A DNA stretch of 64,000 nt, taken from NCBI RefSeq assembly GCF_002934365.1, contig NZ_PTIY01000002.1, forward strand, positions 248,001 through 312,000, given 5' to 3'. Numbering within the stretch: position 1 is the stretch's first letter; every line of letters begins with the position of its first letter. This stretch comes from Methylobacter tundripaludum (lineage in GTDB: Bacteria > Pseudomonadota > Gammaproteobacteria > Methylococcales > Methylomonadaceae). This document shows, piece after piece, positions 11,978 through 21,530 of this stretch. A program made the position numbers and the translations under genes. The notes under the pieces are model-generated. The model was given only the letters and a program-made list of their open reading frames with translations, had not been told where the DNA came from and searched no databases.

Positions 11978-14900
11978 ATGAATGATTATTTAGGAAGTAC
12001 ACCGATACGTCGGCTGATTCCCGGTATTTTACTGGCCGGCCTGTTATGGCTGGGCTTTATGGTGCTGCGCGAGTTTTTGCTGACTCTGATCTGGGCGTTG
12101 ATTATCGCCTATGTGGCATGGCCGCCATATCGCTATCTAAGACATAAGTTCAAAGATAATGCCGCGCTCAGTGCGGCGGTAATGACGGCGATTATTGCGA
12201 CAGTGATCTTACTGGCCGTTTATTGGCTGGTCGCCATGTTGCAGAATGAACTAACAATTGCTTATCAAACCCTGGTCGACGGCTTTAACCAGGATGCTTA
12301 CCGCCTGCCGGATTTTATCAGACGCATTCCGGGACTGGGCGGCACGGCGCAGGAATGGTTGGACCGGGTGGCTGGCGACAGGGCGGCCGTGCTGGCGCAA
12401 TTTGCCGCATGGGCGCAGCAGTGGTCGGGCGAATTCGCCAAATTCCTCGGCGGTATCGGCCGTTACGTTATAAAGTTAGGCGTCATCCTGGTTACGGTGT
12501 TTTTTTGCTTCCGTGACGGCGACGAGGTTGTTAAGCAGCTGCAACAAGGCCTGGTGCGGTTTTTGGGGGCATATCAGCACGTCTATCTGCAAGCCGCCGG
12601 ACAGACGACCCGAGCCGTGGTTTACGGTTTGGTGCTTGCCGCGCTGGGGCAGGGTGCGCTGGCCGGATTGGGTTATTATGTCGCCGGAGTCCAGGCGCCG
12701 GTATTGTTTGGCGCGATGACCGCGCTGTTGGCTATGGTTCCGATGGGGGCGACACTGGTATGGATGCCGCTAAGCGTCATGCTGATATTGACAGAGCAGC
12801 ATTGGCAGGGAATAGGATTGTTTCTCTGGGGATTCCTGGTGGTCAGTACGGTGGATAATGTGATCCGGCCGTTGGTCATTAGCGGCGCGGGCCGGATACC
12901 TTTTCTGGTGGTGTTGTTCGGCGTTCTTGGTGGGCTCACGACCTTCGGCGCAGTCGGGCTCTTTTTGGGGCCGGTGATTTTAGCCGTCCTGCTGGCCGTG
13001 TGGCACGCCTGGTTGAAGCAACAACAGACTGAAGAGGGGAAACAGGACGCGCCAGCTTCCCCGGATAGGGATGTTCGGCCCAACTGGCATACCCTGTCGG
13101 TTGAAAAAGCGCTCTCAACACAGGCTTCGGACGCCGCGGTCGGCTTGAGTTCAGGCGTAGCGGCCGACCGGCAAAAGCGTTACGGGTTCAACCGGCTGGC
13201 CGAAAAACCGCCGCGCTCCGCCTGGTATGTATTGCTGGCCCAGTTTAAAAGCTTTCTTATTGTGGTACTGATAGCGGCGGCTGTCTTGGCCGCCGCTATC
13301 GGTGACTTAACGGACGGCATAGTGATTCTGGCCGTTGTGGTCATTAACGCATTGCTGGGGTTTTATCAGGAGTTCCAGGCCGAAAAATCGCTGGCGGCGC
13401 TTAAGAGCATGCTCGCATTGCGTGCCGAGGTGCGCCGTGACGGACGCACCGTTGAATTGCCGGCCGACCAGCTGGTGCCGGGCGATATAGTCATTCTGGA
13501 ACCCGGCGACAAGATCCCGGCAGACGGCCGTATTATTTCCTGCCAAACGCTGGAAGTCGACGAGTCTTCATTGACAGGCGAGTCGGTGCCCGTTGGCAAA
13601 TACGAGCAGGCGCTCGAACAGGCAACGATGCCGTTGGCCGAGCGCGGCAACATGCTTTATATGAACAATACCGTTACCCGCGGCCGAGCCAAAATGTTGG
13701 TGACCGCAATCGGGATGGATACCGAGATCGGCAAATTGGCGGGCCTGTTGTCGGAAGAAAAAGACGGCGAGACTCCGTTGCAAATACAGCTCGACAGCCT
13801 GGGCAAGCGGCTGGCCTTGATTGCGCTGGGGATCATCGGGCTCCTGATTGTGGCAGCCTTGTGGCGCGGGGAAGCGTTGGTGCGGATAGCATTCGACGCG
13901 ATTGCATTGGCCGTGGCGGCGATCCCCGAGGGCTTGCCCGCGGTAGTCACCGTCACCCTGGCTTTGGGGATGCATCGCATGGCCCGCCAACGCGCTATCG
14001 TCAAGCGTCTGGCCGCTGTGGAAACCTTGGGCTGCACCACGGTGATCTGCACCGACAAAACCGGAACCTTGACCGTCAACCAGATGACTGCACGGTCAAT
14101 TTTCTATAAAGGCCGAAGCTATAAGGTCAGCGGCGAAGGCTATGAAACGGCCGGCCGGATTTTACCGGTTGCCGACGGCAATGCGGCCGACGATTTAGCC
14201 GATTTACTACTGCCGTTAGCGTTATGCAACAACAGCCGTTTGCAGGGCAAGCAGGTGGTGGGCGATCCGATGGAAAGCGCATTATTGGTGCTCGCGGCCA
14301 AAGGCGGTATCGACAAGAAACAGGCTCACTTGCAACTGCCGCGCATCGCCGAACTCCCTTTTGATGCCGAACATAAATTCATGGCGACCTTCCATCAAGA
14401 CGGCGACCGGGTCAAAGTATTTATTAAGGGCGCGCCGGAAGTCTTGCTCAAACTGTGTAACTCGGTTGTTGATAGCAGCGGTAACCCGTCGCCGGTTGAG
14501 CCCGAGACATTGCCGGCCCAAAATCAAATCATGGCGGGCACCGGTTTGCGGGTGCTGGGCGTCGCTGTTCGCACATTACCAGCGGGCGAGTTTAACCAGG
14601 ATAATGACCTGTTCCAATATGTTCGGGAGCTTAGCTTTGTCGCGCTGGTCGGTTTAATGGACCCGCCAAGGGCCGAAGCCCGCGAGGCCATCAAGCTCTG
14701 CCAACAGGCCGGTATCGCGGTCAAAATGATTACCGGCGATCAGAAAGTGACGGCTTTTGCGATTGCGCAGGAACTGGGCTTGGCCGGTGAGGTGATCGAA
14801 GGCGAAGAACTGGCTCGGATGGACGACGGCGCTCTGGCGGCGCGTATCAATGCGATCGCCGTGTTTGCCCGCACCGCGCCGGAGCAGAAAGTACGGATCA

Positions 14901-15748
14901 TCAAAGCCCTGAAAGCCGACGGTCACGTTGTGGCGATGACCGGGGACGGCGTCAACGATGCGCCCGCGTTAAAGAGCGCCGATATAGGCATTGCGATGGG
15001 CGTCACCGGCACCGACGTCGCCAGGGAAGCCGCGTCGATGATACTGACCGATGACAATTTCGCCACCATCGTCAAGGCGGTCAAAGAAGGGCGGGGCATT
15101 TACGACAACATGATCAAATTCGTCCGCTTCCAGCTGTCTACCAATATCGGCGCGATACTGACCGTCGTCGGCGCGCCGCTGCTGGGCATGCCGGTGCCGT
15201 TTACCGCCGTGCAATTGCTGTGGATCAACATCATCATGGACGGTCCTCCGGCCATGTCGCTGGGCGTCGATCCGGTTCGCGCCGGCGGCATGGACGAAGC
15301 GCCGCGCGACCCCGACGCGCGGATACTGTCATTACGGCGTTTCGGCAATCTGCTCGGTTATGGGCTGACCATGGCTGCCGGTACCTTAGGGATTTTGTAT
15401 TACGGCCTGCAAACCGGTGAAAGCCAGCATGCGGCGACTTTGGCGTTCACCACCTTCGTGCTGTTCCAGGTGTTCAACGTGTTTAACGCCCGGTCGGAAA
15501 AAGGCACGAGCTTCAATCGGCATTTTTGCGCCAACCGATGGCTCTGGCTGGCATTATTCGGGGTGATTCTGCTGCAAATACTGGTCATACACTGGCCGCC
15601 CGCGCAGCTGATATTCCATACCACGGCATTGACGCAGACGGATTGGCTGATGGCGACCGGTGTTGCCGCGTCAATACTGGTGCTTGAAGAACTGCGCAAA
15701 ATGTTGCGCGCTAGGAGCGTTATGCGCGGACTGCAAATCCGTTCCTAA
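11978..15748 (+). CDS. Fusion of AI-2E/PerM-family permease and P-type (calcium-type) ATPase
   Basis: One uninterrupted 1256-residue frame. Residues ~1-345 match the AI-2E/PerM permease family: seven to eight hydrophobic segments ending in LFGVLGGLTTFGAVGLFLGP. A short hydrophilic linker follows. From ~369 comes a complete P-type ATPase with the N-terminal cation-ATPase segment, TGES at 533-536, the phosphorylated DKTGT at 693-697, and TGDGVND at 988-994. Membrane helices carry PEGLPAV (M4) and NIIMDGPPA (M6), as in P2A calcium pumps. Each domain is full length with all catalytic residues. The pump part should export a divalent cation, probably calcium. AI-2E/PerM relatives include antiporters and small-molecule exporters. 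What the fusion transports together is unknown. It is monocistronic. Confidence 0.88.
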   Translation: MNDYLGSTPIRRLIPGILLAGLLWLGFMVLREFLLTLIWALIIAYVAWPPYRYLRHKFKDNAALSAAVMTAIIATVILLAVYWLVAMLQNELTIAYQTLVDGFNQDAYRLPDFIRRIPGLGGTAQEWLDRVAGDRAAVLAQFAAWAQQWSGEFAKFLGGIGRYVIKLGVILVTVFFCFRDGDEVVKQLQQGLVRFLGAYQHVYLQAAGQTTRAVVYGLVLAALGQGALAGLGYYVAGVQAPVLFGAMTALLAMVPMGATLVWMPLSVMLILTEQHWQGIGLFLWGFLVVSTVDNVIRPLVISGAGRIPFLVVLFGVLGGLTTFGAVGLFLGPVILAVLLAVWHAWLKQQQTEEGKQDAPASPDRDVRPNWHTLSVEKALSTQASDAAVGLSSGVAADRQKRYGFNRLAEKPPRSAWYVLLAQFKSFLIVVLIAAAVLAAAIGDLTDGIVILAVVVINALLGFYQEFQAEKSLAALKSMLALRAEVRRDGRTVELPADQLVPGDIVILEPGDKIPADGRIISCQTLEVDESSLTGESVPVGKYEQALEQATMPLAERGNMLYMNNTVTRGRAKMLVTAIGMDTEIGKLAGLLSEEKDGETPLQIQLDSLGKRLALIALGIIGLLIVAALWRGEALVRIAFDAIALAVAAIPEGLPAVVTVTLALGMHRMARQRAIVKRLAAVETLGCTTVICTDKTGTLTVNQMTARSIFYKGRSYKVSGEGYETAGRILPVADGNAADDLADLLLPLALCNNSRLQGKQVVGDPMESALLVLAAKGGIDKKQAHLQLPRIAELPFDAEHKFMATFHQDGDRVKVFIKGAPEVLLKLCNSVVDSSGNPSPVEPETLPAQNQIMAGTGLRVLGVAVRTLPAGEFNQDNDLFQYVRELSFVALVGLMDPPRAEAREAIKLCQQAGIAVKMITGDQKVTAFAIAQELGLAGEVIEGEELARMDDGALAARINAIAVFARTAPEQKVRIIKALKADGHVVAMTGDGVNDAPALKSADIGIAMGVTGTDVAREAASMILTDDNFATIVKAVKEGRGIYDNMIKFVRFQLSTNIGAILTVVGAPLLGMPVPFTAVQLLWINIIMDGPPAMSLGVDPVRAGGMDEAPRDPDARILSLRRFGNLLGYGLTMAAGTLGILYYGLQTGESQHAATLAFTTFVLFQVFNVFNARSEKGTSFNRHFCANRWLWLALFGVILLQILVIHWPPAQLIFHTTALTQTDWLMATGVAASILVLEELRKMLRARSVMRGLQIRS

Positions 15749-16064: not shown

Positions 16065-17036
16065 ATGAATCCATATCGCACACTCCTGCTGAATCTCGGC
16101 AGTACCGCTTTGCTGCTGGCCTCTGTAACCGCATTCGCGGACCAGAACGCATTGCCGTCCGGCGGCTCGCCCACTAGCGTGTCGATCACCAATAGTTCAA
16201 ACGCGCCGGTATACGCCAATATCGTGCTTGGACAACCGCCGGCCACATTGCCGCCGAATTGCAGCAACCTCGGCACGCAAATCCAAAGCCTTACCGACAG
16301 CAACCTGGTGTTCACTTCCAGCGTTGCCGGCAAGACTGTCAGCTTTACCCTGGTACCCGGCGTCAACGACAAAGGCTCGTACCAAATGGCTGCCGGCGAG
16401 ACGATTACCTATACGCCGCAGACCATCAGTTGCGGCAGCGCAAGTTGCAGTCCAGCCGTGACGTTCAACTATTTCTTTACCCCGACCGACGTGGGCTTCA
16501 AAGACAACAACGGTTGCAGCAACAGCACTTTCCCGAACGCCACTAACTTGGCCGAGGCTTCGATCAACTTCGGCGTCAACGGTTCTGTCGGCGCCGGTTG
16601 CGCCAATGCCGACGACACCGACATCAGCGCCGTCAATGGCGTCAACTCAATTCTGCAAGTCTCCACCCAGGATGCCGGGGGCAATCCGCAAACCGGCTGG
16701 CCCGCGTCCACCAGTCTTGCGAAGAACGCAGTGCTCGGCAAGAATGCCAATCTCCCCGGTGTGTTCGGATGGGCCGCCACCAACTGTAGCGGCAATCTGG
16801 CCAACTCCGGCTACCCCAATCCGACCAAGGCCTGCGCCGCACCCAAAATGGCGCCGCGCGCATCGAAAAAACATACCTGTACCACGCCAAACGGCACTCA
16901 GTACAAGGCGATCATTGGGCCCAAGAAAACTTACTACTGCGATGAACGCAGCGACGCGGGCACCTGCAACAACCAACGTCAAGCTTACGTCACCGGCGGC
17001 ACTGTGCAAATCCTTTACATCGGGCCGGCTTATTGA
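16065..17036 (+). CDS. Secreted cysteine-rich protein, distantly thaumatin-like
   Basis: 323 residues. The signal peptide ends near AFA/DQ (residue ~25). The mature part is rich in Asn, Ser, Thr and Gly, with about 14 cysteines that could form disulfides. A stretch near residue 187 (DTDISAVNGVN) recalls the core motif of thaumatin-like proteins, and VSITNSSNAPVYANI near the N-terminus fits the beta-strand opening of that fold. The C-terminal part has closely spaced Cys residues (KHTCTTPNG, TYYCDERSDAGTC). ATG follows AAGGAA. Fate is periplasmic or extracellular. No enzyme motif is seen; the thaumatin link is tentative. It is a single gene followed by strong hairpins. Confidence 0.75.
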   Translation: MNPYRTLLLNLGSTALLLASVTAFADQNALPSGGSPTSVSITNSSNAPVYANIVLGQPPATLPPNCSNLGTQIQSLTDSNLVFTSSVAGKTVSFTLVPGVNDKGSYQMAAGETITYTPQTISCGSASCSPAVTFNYFFTPTDVGFKDNNGCSNSTFPNATNLAEASINFGVNGSVGAGCANADDTDISAVNGVNSILQVSTQDAGGNPQTGWPASTSLAKNAVLGKNANLPGVFGWAATNCSGNLANSGYPNPTKACAAPKMAPRASKKHTCTTPNGTQYKAIIGPKKTYYCDERSDAGTCNNQRQAYVTGGTVQILYIGPAY

Positions 17037-17654: not shown

Positions 17655-18713
17655 TTACTGCGCCGTATAAAACCGTTTCCTGAAGAAAAACGCCACATTC
17701 ACCAATGCAATCATCGCCGGCACCTCGATCAACGGCCCGATCACAGCCGCGAACGCCGCGCCGCTGTTGATGCCGAACACAGCCACGGCGACCGCAATCG
17801 CCAGTTCAAAATTGTTGCTGGCGGCGGTAAACGCCAGCGTGGCGCTCTTGCCGTAATCCGCGCCGATGGCTTTGCCCATCAGAAAGCTGACCAAAAACAT
17901 CACCACAAAGTAAATCAGCAGCGGGATGGCGATTCTCACAACATCCAGCGGTAATTGCACGATCAAATCGCCTTTCAAGGAAAACATCACGACTATCGTA
18001 AACAACAGGGCGATCAGGGTTAGAGGGCTGATTTTCGGCACGAAACGCTGGTGATACCAATCCTTGCCTTTGGCCTTGATCAACACGAAACGGGTGGTGA
18101 AGCCGGCAATAAACGGAATGCCCAGATAGATGAACACGCTTTCGGCAATCTCAGCGATCGTGATGCTGACCATGCTACCCTGCATGCCGAATAACGGAGG
18201 CAACACGGTGATGAACAGCCAGGCATAAACACTGTAAAACAGCACCTGGAACACGCTGTTAAACGCCACCAAGCCTGCCGCATATTCGTTGTCGCCGCGC
18301 GCCAGTTCGTTCCAGACGATCACCATCGCGATGCAACGGGCCAGGCCGATCAGGATCAGGCCGGTCATATAGTCCGGGTAATCGCGCAAAAACACGATAG
18401 CCAGTGCGAACATTAATACCGGGCCGATAACCCAGTTTTGTAGCAGCGACAGCGACAATATCCGCCAATTGCGAAACACATCGCCCAGTTCTTCGTAATG
18501 CACTTTGGCCAGCGGCGGATACATCATCAGGATCAAGCCGACGGCAATCGGGATATTGGTGGCGCCGACCGACACGGCGTTATTGACCTCGACGACCTCG
18601 GCCGGAAACAGAAAACCGATGCCGACGCCGATCGCCATCGCGATAAAAATCCATAGCGTCAGGTAGCGGTCAAGAAAAGATAAGCGGGCATTGGGGCAGT
18701 TGGGTGGGTTCAT
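17655..18713 (-). CDS. acr3: ACR3-family arsenite efflux permease
   Basis: 352 residues with about ten membrane segments. The start [16 protein letters not shown] and the segment [16 protein letters not shown], with the conserved functional cysteine, are typical of ACR3. A late segment has [17 protein letters not shown]. It exports arsenite using the proton motive force or the ArsA ATPase. I use ATG 18713 because GGAG lies six bases upstream. An upstream extension to 18911 would run into arsI and adds a non-family sequence. It is the last gene of the ars operon. Having arsA and arsD with acr3, not arsB, is a less common but known arrangement. Confidence 0.95.
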
Positions 18714-18768
18714 CAGGGTCTCCGAATAATGTGGCTTGCGCTTTGCTTTTGCAAGGGGTTGTTTGGTG

Positions 18769-19194
18769 TCATGCCGGTTTGCAACAGGCCGGGGCCGGTT
18801 CAAGTTGTACGACCTGATCTTCGCCAAACATCGGAATGGCATCCAATGAGTGGAAAGCTTCCCAGGCGATGCCTTGCGGATCAACCGTCCAGTATTTATC
18901 GGATTGCGCATAACAGCAGGCGGCTTGCATTTGGGCGGCGACAGGTAAGGCCGCTGCGGTTAAGCTTTGTTCCACGCTATCCAGTTCAGCGCTCGATTCT
19001 ACCTGTATGCCCAAATGATCCAGTCCCGGTTTCCGTCCCCTGCTGGAAATGGCGAAGTTGATGCGCGGATCGTCCAGCATCCATTTGGCGTAATCGGTTT
19101 CTAAAATGCCGGGCTCAGTTTGGAATAACGCCGTGTAGAAACGGATGTTCTCTTCAAGATCATTAACGGCGATGTGTATATGGAATCGTTTCAT
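18769..19194 (-). CDS. arsI: ArsI/CadI-type VOC-family protein (probable C-As lyase)
   Basis: A 141-residue vicinal-oxygen-chelate protein. Candidate Fe(II) ligands are a His in FHIHIAV at the N-terminus, the His in LDHLGIQV and the Glu in GIAWEAFHS. The adjacent cysteine pair in [13 protein letters not shown] matches the trivalent-arsenic site of ArsI, which cleaves the C-As bond of methylarsenite and aromatic arsenicals with oxygen. An additional CC pair lies at the C-terminus (PACCKPA). It sits between arsC and acr3, so resistance to organoarsenicals is likely part of the operon. CadI (cadmium-induced) is the family's older name, and the substrate is inferred. Confidence 0.88.
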
Positions 19195-19234
19195 AGCGAA
19201 TGCTCCGGGAAATTAAATTTGTAGGCTGCCGATT

Positions 19235-19744
19235 TTAGACGCCTGTTTCATGCACAAGACCGATGTCGTCGATGTGACGTTTCATGGTTATCGCGTCCAA
19301 TTTGTCGATCGGCAGGCTGCAAAATAGCGATATACGCCGCTTGAGCAATAAATAAGTAATAAAGAAGGCTTTTTGTTGTTGCTCGACAGATCTAAAGAAT
19401 CTTACAGGATCCTCGACACCCCATTGGGCCGGCATTGGCTGACCGGGCCAATCCGGGCAAGGTTCGCCGGCGGTCTTGTCGCAGACCGTGAAAACGAAAT
19501 CAAAGTGGGGCGCACCGTCGGAGATGAATTCATCCCAATGTTTACTGCGCAGGCCGACTGTATCGTAATTAAGGCTTTGCAGTAGATGGATGGATAACGG
19601 ATTGACTTCACCGATGGGGTGACTGCCGGCGCTAAACGCTCGAAAATATCCGTTGCCCATCTGATTGAGGATAGCTTCAGCCATGATGCTGCGAGCCGAA
19701 TTCCATGTACAGATAAACAGAACGTTGTAGCTTTTTTGAGTCAT
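19235..19744 (-). CDS. arsC: Arsenate reductase-like LMW-phosphatase-fold protein, second copy
   Basis: A 169-residue protein of the low-molecular-weight tyrosine phosphatase fold. The P-loop reads CTWNSARS: the catalytic Cys and Arg are kept, but the second P-loop cysteine found in classic thioredoxin-linked ArsC is Ala. The redox pair further on is present (VCDKTAGEPCPDWPG), as is WGVEDP. It could reduce arsenate by a modified cysteine relay, or process another arsenical. Its ATG starts one base before the arsA stop region ends, in a tight operon. A second, more classic ArsC is encoded in the same operon, so this one is a diverged partner. Confidence 0.87.
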   Translation of the reverse strand: MTQKSYNVLFICTWNSARSIMAEAILNQMGNGYFRAFSAGSHPIGEVNPLSIHLLQSLNYDTVGLRSKHWDEFISDGAPHFDFVFTVCDKTAGEPCPDWPGQPMPAQWGVEDPVRFFRSVEQQQKAFFITYLLLKRRISLFCSLPIDKLDAITMKRHIDDIGLVHETGV

Positions 19745-19745
19745 G

Positions 19746-21530
19746 TCAGCGTTCAGGATCGATTCGATTGTTACTGATCAATTCAAGCAAGCGTGCAACA
19801 CCTACAGGTTCTTCTCTAAGCAGCGGCACGACGGCGTAGCGCGGGGCATATTTGTCGGCTACGTCCTCGATTTCCCGCAATTCATTGGCGGCGCGTTGGC
19901 GCAGTAGCGGCGAATGCACGGTCGTAGCCGCAACGCTGCTGTTGACCACCCAGGCCCAAGGTTCGATTCCTGCCCGGCGCAAGTCGGCTTGCAGGTTGGC
20001 GGCTTCCAGCACCGGCGTGGTTTCCGCCAAGGTGACAATCAGCACCTTGGTTTGCTTAGCGTCCTGCAATTTCATCATCGGCGTGCTGTAATGCAGACCG
20101 GAGTCGCCGATCTGGCGCGACACTTCGCGATGATACGCGCCGGTGGCGTCCAGCAGCAGTAAGGTATGGCCGGTCGGTGCGGTGTCCATTACCACGAACT
20201 TATGGCCGGCCTCGCGAATGATGCGGGAGAAAGCCTGGAAGACGGCGATTTCCTCGGTGCAGGGCGAACGCAAGTCTTCTTCCAGCAACGCTCGGCCGTG
20301 GTCGTCGAGCCGTTTGCCCTTGGTCTCCAGTACGTGTTGGCGGTAATGTTCGGTTTCGACGTGCGGGTCGATCCGGCTGACGGTTAGATTATCCAATGCG
20401 CCGTTCAGGGTTTCGCTCAAATGCGCGGCCGGATCGGAGGTGGTCAGATGCACCGGCAGTCCCCGACGCGCCAATTCAACGGCCAGCGCGGCGGCCAGCG
20501 TCGTTTTGCCGACGCCGCCTTTGCCCATCAGCATGATCAGGCCGTGGCCGTCGACCGCTATGTCATCGACCAGCGCTGAAAGACTGGGTTGGTTAATCTC
20601 GATCGGAGAATCGACAATGATTTGCCCTTGGACCGGCGCGTCAGACAGCAGTTGGCGAAGGGCGTCCACGCCCATCAGGTTAAACGGCTTCAACATGACT
20701 TTGTCGCAAGGCAAGGCCTGCAAGACTTCGGGGATGGCTTGCAGTGCGGATTGTTCGCGCTGGTAAATAGCCGCGGCCAACGGGTCGTTGGCGGTTTCGA
20801 TATGAGGCAGGATGCCGTTGATGACCAGATACTGGCGCTGAAAGCCGATCGACGCCAGTTCTTCATGCGTGCGTGCGACTTCGCGCAAGGTCGCTTGCTG
20901 GGCGCGGGCCACAAGAATCAGCCGGGTGCATGTCTCATCCGCCAGCGTATCGACGGCGGACTTGTACTGTGCGCGCTGTTTTTCAAGTCCGGCCAGCGGG
21001 CCAAGGCAAGAGGCGTCGCCTTTGCCTTCTTCCAGAAAGCCGCTCCAGGCGCCGGGCAGTTGCAGGAGCCGGATGGTGTGGCCTGTCGGCGCGGTATCGA
21101 AAACGATATGATCGTAAGCGGCGGTTAGCGTTGAATCGGTCAATAGCGCGGTAAACTCGTCGAACGCCGCTATCTCGGTAGTGCAAGCGCCGGACAGCTG
21201 TTCTTCAATGCCTTTAACGACCGAGTCCGGCAATATCCCCCGCACCGGGCCGACGATACGGTCACGGTAGGCTTGCGCGGCCGCTTGAGGATCGATTTCC
21301 AGTGCCGCCAGCCCCGGCACCGACGTAATGGCGGTGATCTTGTTGCCGATGCTGACGCCGAATACCTGGCCGACATTGGACGCCGGGTCGGTGCTGACCA
21401 GCAGTACCTGTCGTCCGGCATCCGCCAGTTGTATGGCCGTGGCGCAGGCGATTGATGTCTTTCCGACGCCGCCCTTGCCGGTAAAAAACAGAAAGCGGGG
21501 CGGTTGTTCGAGAAATTTGCAATCGCTCAT
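19746..21530 (-). CDS. arsA: Arsenical pump-driving ATPase ArsA
   Basis: 594 residues in two homologous ATPase halves. Each half has a P-loop: TGKGGVGKTS near residue 17 and MGKGGVGKTT near residue 333. Each also has the signature DTAPTGHT. The metalloid-site cysteines known from E. coli ArsA are visible in GACTTEIAAF, ASCLGPL and PCTEEIAVF. ArsA is a soluble ATPase that receives As(III) from ArsD and energises the membrane permease. The permease here is of ACR3 type. The gene lies 21 bases after arsD and overlaps nothing. Confidence 0.96.
   Translation of the reverse strand: MSDCKFLEQPPRFLFFTGKGGVGKTSIACATAIQLADAGRQVLLVSTDPASNVGQVFGVSIGNKITAITSVPGLAALEIDPQAAAQAYRDRIVGPVRGILPDSVVKGIEEQLSGACTTEIAAFDEFTALLTDSTLTAAYDHIVFDTAPTGHTIRLLQLPGAWSGFLEEGKGDASCLGPLAGLEKQRAQYKSAVDTLADETCTRLILVARAQQATLREVARTHEELASIGFQRQYLVINGILPHIETANDPLAAAIYQREQSALQAIPEVLQALPCDKVMLKPFNLMGVDALRQLLSDAPVQGQIIVDSPIEINQPSLSALVDDIAVDGHGLIMLMGKGGVGKTTLAAALAVELARRGLPVHLTTSDPAAHLSETLNGALDNLTVSRIDPHVETEHYRQHVLETKGKRLDDHGRALLEEDLRSPCTEEIAVFQAFSRIIREAGHKFVVMDTAPTGHTLLLLDATGAYHREVSRQIGDSGLHYSTPMMKLQDAKQTKVLIVTLAETTPVLEAANLQADLRRAGIEPWAWVVNSSVAATTVHSPLLRQRAANELREIEDVADKYAPRYAVVPLLREEPVGVARLLELISNNRIDPER

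Follow-up and report, generated by a model that had tools for sequence, protein, structure and literature searches.

A permease of the AI-2E family fused to an SPCA/PMR1-like cation pump in Methylobacter tundripaludum and other Methylococcales

Fused gene and its recurrence

A single gene joining a complete AI-2E-family permease to a complete P2A-type ATPase (1256 aa) was identified at 11978–15748 on the forward strand of the window, the 64,000-nucleotide stretch of Methylobacter tundripaludum DNA that was analyzed, and the permease stood in a similarly long frame in about 40 Methylococcales genomes of eight genera. We read the protein as a tethered pair, in which a one-site efflux pump for Ca2+ (perhaps Mn2+) would be held beside the permease and coupled to it by proximity, not rigidly; we give this reading a probability of about one half.

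The frame of 1256 codons carried no internal stop. The permease domain (YdiK/PerM-type; AI-2E_transport, PF01594) covered residues 14–345 (12017–13012, + strand; 1.8e-42 for the whole protein), and the permease half scored 146 bits against a cut-off of 34.3, with profile positions 4–326 of 327 covered. A variable linker at residues ~349–369 (13022–13084, +) led into a complete P2A/SPCA-like cation ATPase at residues 370–1243 (13085–15706, +), comprising the Pfam domains Cation_ATPase_N (370–437), E1-E2_ATPase (478–671), Cation_ATPase (748–829), Hydrolase (878–1002), and Cation_ATPase_C (1072–1243). The original prediction of one frame joining two complete proteins, of families that usually stand apart, was confirmed by the open frame and the Pfam matches, and the junction that it had placed at about 13010–13085 agreed with the linker found here. 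The linker held no start codon, and neither ATG, GTG, nor TTG occurred between residues 347 and 389; thus, there was no sign that the pump is also made separately.

A search of 61 relatives retrieved the full-length fusion at 74–84% identity and without stops in many genomes. The permease half was present in 133 of 311 Methylococcales genomes, and in 41 of the 133, which represented eight genera, it lay in a frame whose length far exceeded that of a lone permease; these 41 were counted by frame length, and the identity of the pump was taken from the loci that were read, in which a pump stood behind the permease and belonged to the same subfamily in all but two. Named carriers were M. tundripaludum SV96, M. 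psychrophilus, Methylovulum miyakonense, and Crenothrix polyspora; the genome records compared were drafts for the most part, and large isolate scaffolds (SV96 and M. miyakonense) were among the independent carriers. The recurrence excluded a sequencing error at the junction, which the original prediction had named as something that would refute it. For the window, where nothing spoke for it, an assembly or sequencing artefact was refuted by the independent genomes, large isolate scaffolds included, and the chance that the fusion is such an artefact is vanishingly small; an artefact is possible for one short contig (L048, see below).

The two halves also diverged together, which again speaks against an artefact: the pairwise distances of the permease and pump halves were strongly correlated (Mantel r = 0.92, with 0 of 2000 permutations as high), as expected under joint inheritance. 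Both halves were under purifying selection (dN/dS 0.05–0.18). In the linker, constraint was relaxed in most pairs compared, and its length was estimated at 12–29 aa in 31 homologues; this lack of conservation argues against mechanical coupling. One otherwise intact fusion (L086:5605, genome G273) had an in-frame stop in the pump half, representing either an error or early decay.

Outside Methylococcales, the fusion was found in none of 399 Pseudomonadota genomes, the window's own apart, and in none of 72,556 plasmids. No description of this combination was found in the open literature, with subscription papers and TCDB lying outside the search.

No riboswitch or other Rfam element of weight was found at the locus. 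Downstream of the fusion, positions 16065–17036 encode a 323 aa protein whose start resembles a secretion signal by eye and which matched no Pfam family. An arsenic-type cluster follows on the reverse strand (17655–21530), with an SBF-family carrier (ACR3-like by eye), a glyoxalase-fold protein (ArsI/CadI-like by eye), a low-molecular-weight phosphatase fold (ArsC-like), and a tandem ArsA ATPase.

Ion site of the pump and family of the permease

The catalytic motifs of the ATPase were complete, as predicted from the sequence: TGES in the actuator domain (residues 533–536; 13574–13585, +; invariant in 32 aligned fusions), the DKTGT phosphorylation motif (residues 693–697; 14054–14068, +; invariant in the fusion alignment), and the TGDGVND hinge motif (residues 988–994; 14939–14959, +; fusion alignment). 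Together with the Cation_ATPase_N and Cation_ATPase_C domains, they place the pump in the P2 (cation) class. The ion-binding residues were identified by alignment and comparison with SERCA. The PEGL of M4 (13925–13936, +) supplies the ion-site Glu (E309); in M5, NIGA (15143–15154, +) keeps N768 and replaces E771 with A; in M6, NIIMD (15227–15241, +) keeps N796 and D800 and replaces T799 with M; and in M8, a Q stands in place of E908 (15467–15469, +). One ion site (E309/N768/N796/D800) was invariant in all subfamily members compared, and the changes E771→A, T799→M, and E908→Q were shared by them. The description of the ATPase as calcium-type therefore held by family, but of the two SERCA ion sites just one is retained.

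This arrangement, with E in M4, N and D in M6, and no M5 E771, is the single-site pattern of PMR1/SPCA pumps. The PMR1-type equivalog model of NCBIfam (TIGR01522) was the best-scoring class at 760.6 bits, under its cut-off of 798.3, so the pump is labeled SPCA/PMR1-like and not a certified member; the PMCA-type model (TIGR01517), for which the threshold is lower (507.05), was passed with 515.2 bits. The closest solved relatives were SPCA1 (E = 2e-187) and the bacterial LMCA1 (PDB match), from which the fused pump differs by its N-terminal permease. SPCA1 likewise has one ion site, and its M4 and M6 are nearly identical to those of the fused pump. Where SPCA1/PMR1 have a Gln in M6, the fused pump subfamily has M, L, or I. 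Mutants of yeast PMR1 have shown that this Gln (Q783) matters for Mn2+, and its replacement would make Ca2+ the likelier ion. The pump half, as judged from these residues, is probably a one-site SPCA/PMR1-like pump that moves Ca2+, and possibly Mn2+, out of the cytoplasm.

In the fold comparison, the permease half significantly matched TqsA (YdgG) and YdiK of E. coli and no other protein; both are stand-alone proteins, unlike the fused permease. YdiK (7ot9) was the sole significant PDB sequence match (E = 1.1e-27) and shares the DNVIRP motif found at residues 293–298 (12854–12871, +), in which D, N, R, and P were invariant in both permease alignments. Three further AI-2E genes were present in the window's genome. 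To our knowledge, few physiological substrates of AI-2E proteins have been established.

Two candidate functions of the permease were considered. LuxS (PF02664) was absent from 18 of 18 fusion-bearing genomes searched, with positive controls, so AI-2 export, the function of TqsA, is unlikely. The other was antiport, since the Na+(Li+)/H+ antiporter UPF0118 of Halobacillus also belongs to the AI-2E family (PMC5379678, PMC7221264). Its proposed signature is E179-R182-K215-Q217-D251-R292-R293-E296-K298-S307 (PMC7221264). The comparison covered motifs C and D, in which the fused permease has other residues (D251→A252, R292→D293, R293→N294, E296→R297, and K298→L299, in a by-eye alignment on the shared Pro). 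The Na+/H+/Ca2+ circuit that had been proposed, if it ran through the permease, was not borne out by these residues. The sequences thus support neither AI-2 export nor Na+/H+ antiport as the permease function.

The N-terminus of a P-type ATPase has to lie on the cytoplasmic side, and permeases of this type are thus most simply taken to have a cytoplasmic C-terminus. In contrast, a periplasmic C-terminus was reported for UPF0118 from a PhoA result (PMC7221264); either the AI-2E subgroups differ in topology or one of the assignments is wrong. The fusion can serve as a natural topology reporter for this permease type. The solved relatives 7ot9 (YdiK) and 7nb6 (TqsA) comprise five chains each, and one entry in the reference list of PMC10070488 calls TqsA a pentamer in its title. 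The AlphaFold model of the fusion (residues 57–1256) had a mean pLDDT of 72.6 with a poor permease end, compared with 67.6 for the permease alone, and no domain arrangement was drawn from it.

Loss of the pump and further joinings

Fused and unfused forms interleaved on the pump tree. When both trees were free, the main fusion needed five changes on that of the pump and 12 on that of the permease. For the pump, however, the AU test did not reject a single fused clade (p-AU 0.32), so despite these numbers, one old origin followed by repeated losses is the simplest reading of the trees; more origins are possible.

One chromosomal slot was informative about the losses. Beside aminotransferase, dksA-like, gluQ-like, and GGDEF genes, the fusion was found in the window and at two other loci (L050 and L185), and the permease without the pump was found in three Methylobacter-group genomes (L034, L037, and L039). 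At L034:1–520 (−), a stop in the linker ends an intact permease, and the linker and pump start are still readable (DRKLQTDWHTLSVEEALWAQASD) before the sequence decays. A linker-like tail was retained on the permease at two further loci (L033 and L036), and a decayed pump gene lay upstream of the permease at another (L118). Close relatives that are unfused, with a stop between the halves, had been named as evidence against a genuine fusion; such relatives do exist, but at the slot read in detail, the remnant marks the absence of the pump as a secondary loss. Retention of the permease after pump loss implies that it has a function independent of the pump. The permease and the pump were each also found without the other, which does not support the coupled transport that had been suggested as an obligate one.

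By our reading of the loci, a transporter and such a pump have come together on at least three further occasions. In three genomes, Methylomicrobium sp. wino1 among them (L160–L162 and L250), the pump subfamily of the main fusion carried another AI-2E permease, 32–34% identical to that of the window, and these pumps lay elsewhere on the pump tree. A KefB/KefC-type exchanger, of a transporter family unrelated to AI-2E, occupied the same N-terminal position on this pump subfamily in two genomes from another family of Methylococcales, one of them a Methylothermaceae record (L045:4937–9247 and L163:2295–6230); its TrkA_N domain was present in the former and largely missing in the latter. In genome G121, on a contig of 5.2 Mb, the permease type of the window was joined to another kind of P2 pump, with 41% identity (L082:2435–6238). 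A further locus (L048:1053–4862) had a linker and pump start like those of the main fusion, but continued into the body of this second P2 pump type. This mosaic may be a product of recombination or, given the short contig, an assembly chimera, and it was left out of the count of separate joinings. Unfused pumps of the second type that were compared had A or S at the M6 ion-site Asp (D800) and kept E771 and E908; thus, their ion may differ.

Adjacent genes were observed as well. AI-2E and pump genes lay side by side, in both orders, at five loci (L206, L216, L233, L251, and L256). Such neighbors occurred in several other Proteobacteria, in some cases accompanied by PsiE, TerC, or UPF0114 genes; these loci came from a search favoring linked pairs, and their frequency is uninformative. 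A control set of 16 pump loci, drawn irrespective of what lay next to them and with some on short contigs, showed no AI-2E gene in the flanking sequence available. General linkage of the two genes was thus rejected, and the partnership is lineage-specific. PsiE genes lay near the pump at L242, L247, L256, and L257, some with TerC or SulP, a possible membrane-stress gene group.

These observations bear on the main rival to tethering, a neutral fusion, in which operon neighbors merged by stop loss, the halves work independently, and the link amounts to co-expression only. Adjacent genes in the same orientation at related loci, the variable linker, and decay of the pump half with the permease kept are in keeping with such a merger. 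It sits poorly with the long retention of the fusion across genera and with at least three further joinings, one to an unrelated exchanger family. We regard a neutral fusion as possible, though it is not the explanation we favor. The separate joinings suggest that the partners work side by side.

Tethering and its meaning

Most unfused Methylococcales pumps of this subfamily have one extra N-terminal helix where the permease stands. In the tethered pair that we favor, the YdiK/PerM-type permease would take the place of this helix in one polypeptide, and the flexible linker would hold the two together in a fixed ratio. The pump, exporting Ca2+ or possibly Mn2+, would sit beside a permease that may be pentameric, as in its solved relatives. 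It may set local ion conditions for the permease, or it may merely be delivered with it; the benefit would come from proximity or from the fixed ratio. The occurrence of each partner alone, including the three permease-only loci of the Methylobacter group, one with a pump remnant, counts against tethering, as do the lineage-specific partnership and the unconserved linker.

The helix at this position also raises the reading that the permease half is a mere multi-helix anchor or regulatory subunit, a role consistent with the fact that the permease and KefB can each occupy that place. Strong selection on the permease within the fusion and its survival alone after pump loss point to a function of its own, and the anchor reading is very improbable.

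A tighter association, in which ATP-driven cation cycling powers or gates export of a second solute by the permease, would account for the repeated covalent pairing of the pump with transporters of different families. We consider such an energetically coupled machine unlikely, because the linker is flexible, with no rigid form conserved, and the permease was kept when the pump was lost; it also has no known substrate, and the motif C and D residues of the Na+/H+ antiporter signature are replaced. Its specific form, with a P2A pump on each subunit of a pentameric permease driving or gating second-solute export, is quite unlikely. If a directly energized or gated permease were true, it would represent an ATP-driven transporter class formed by fusion of a primary pump and a secondary transporter.

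Among the relatives, the fused, adjacent, separate, and decayed forms provide ready comparisons for experiment. That AI-2E permeases and a KefB exchanger have repeatedly been joined to one pump subfamily or to its relative offers a gene-fusion clue to the function of the AI-2E family in hosts that lack LuxS.
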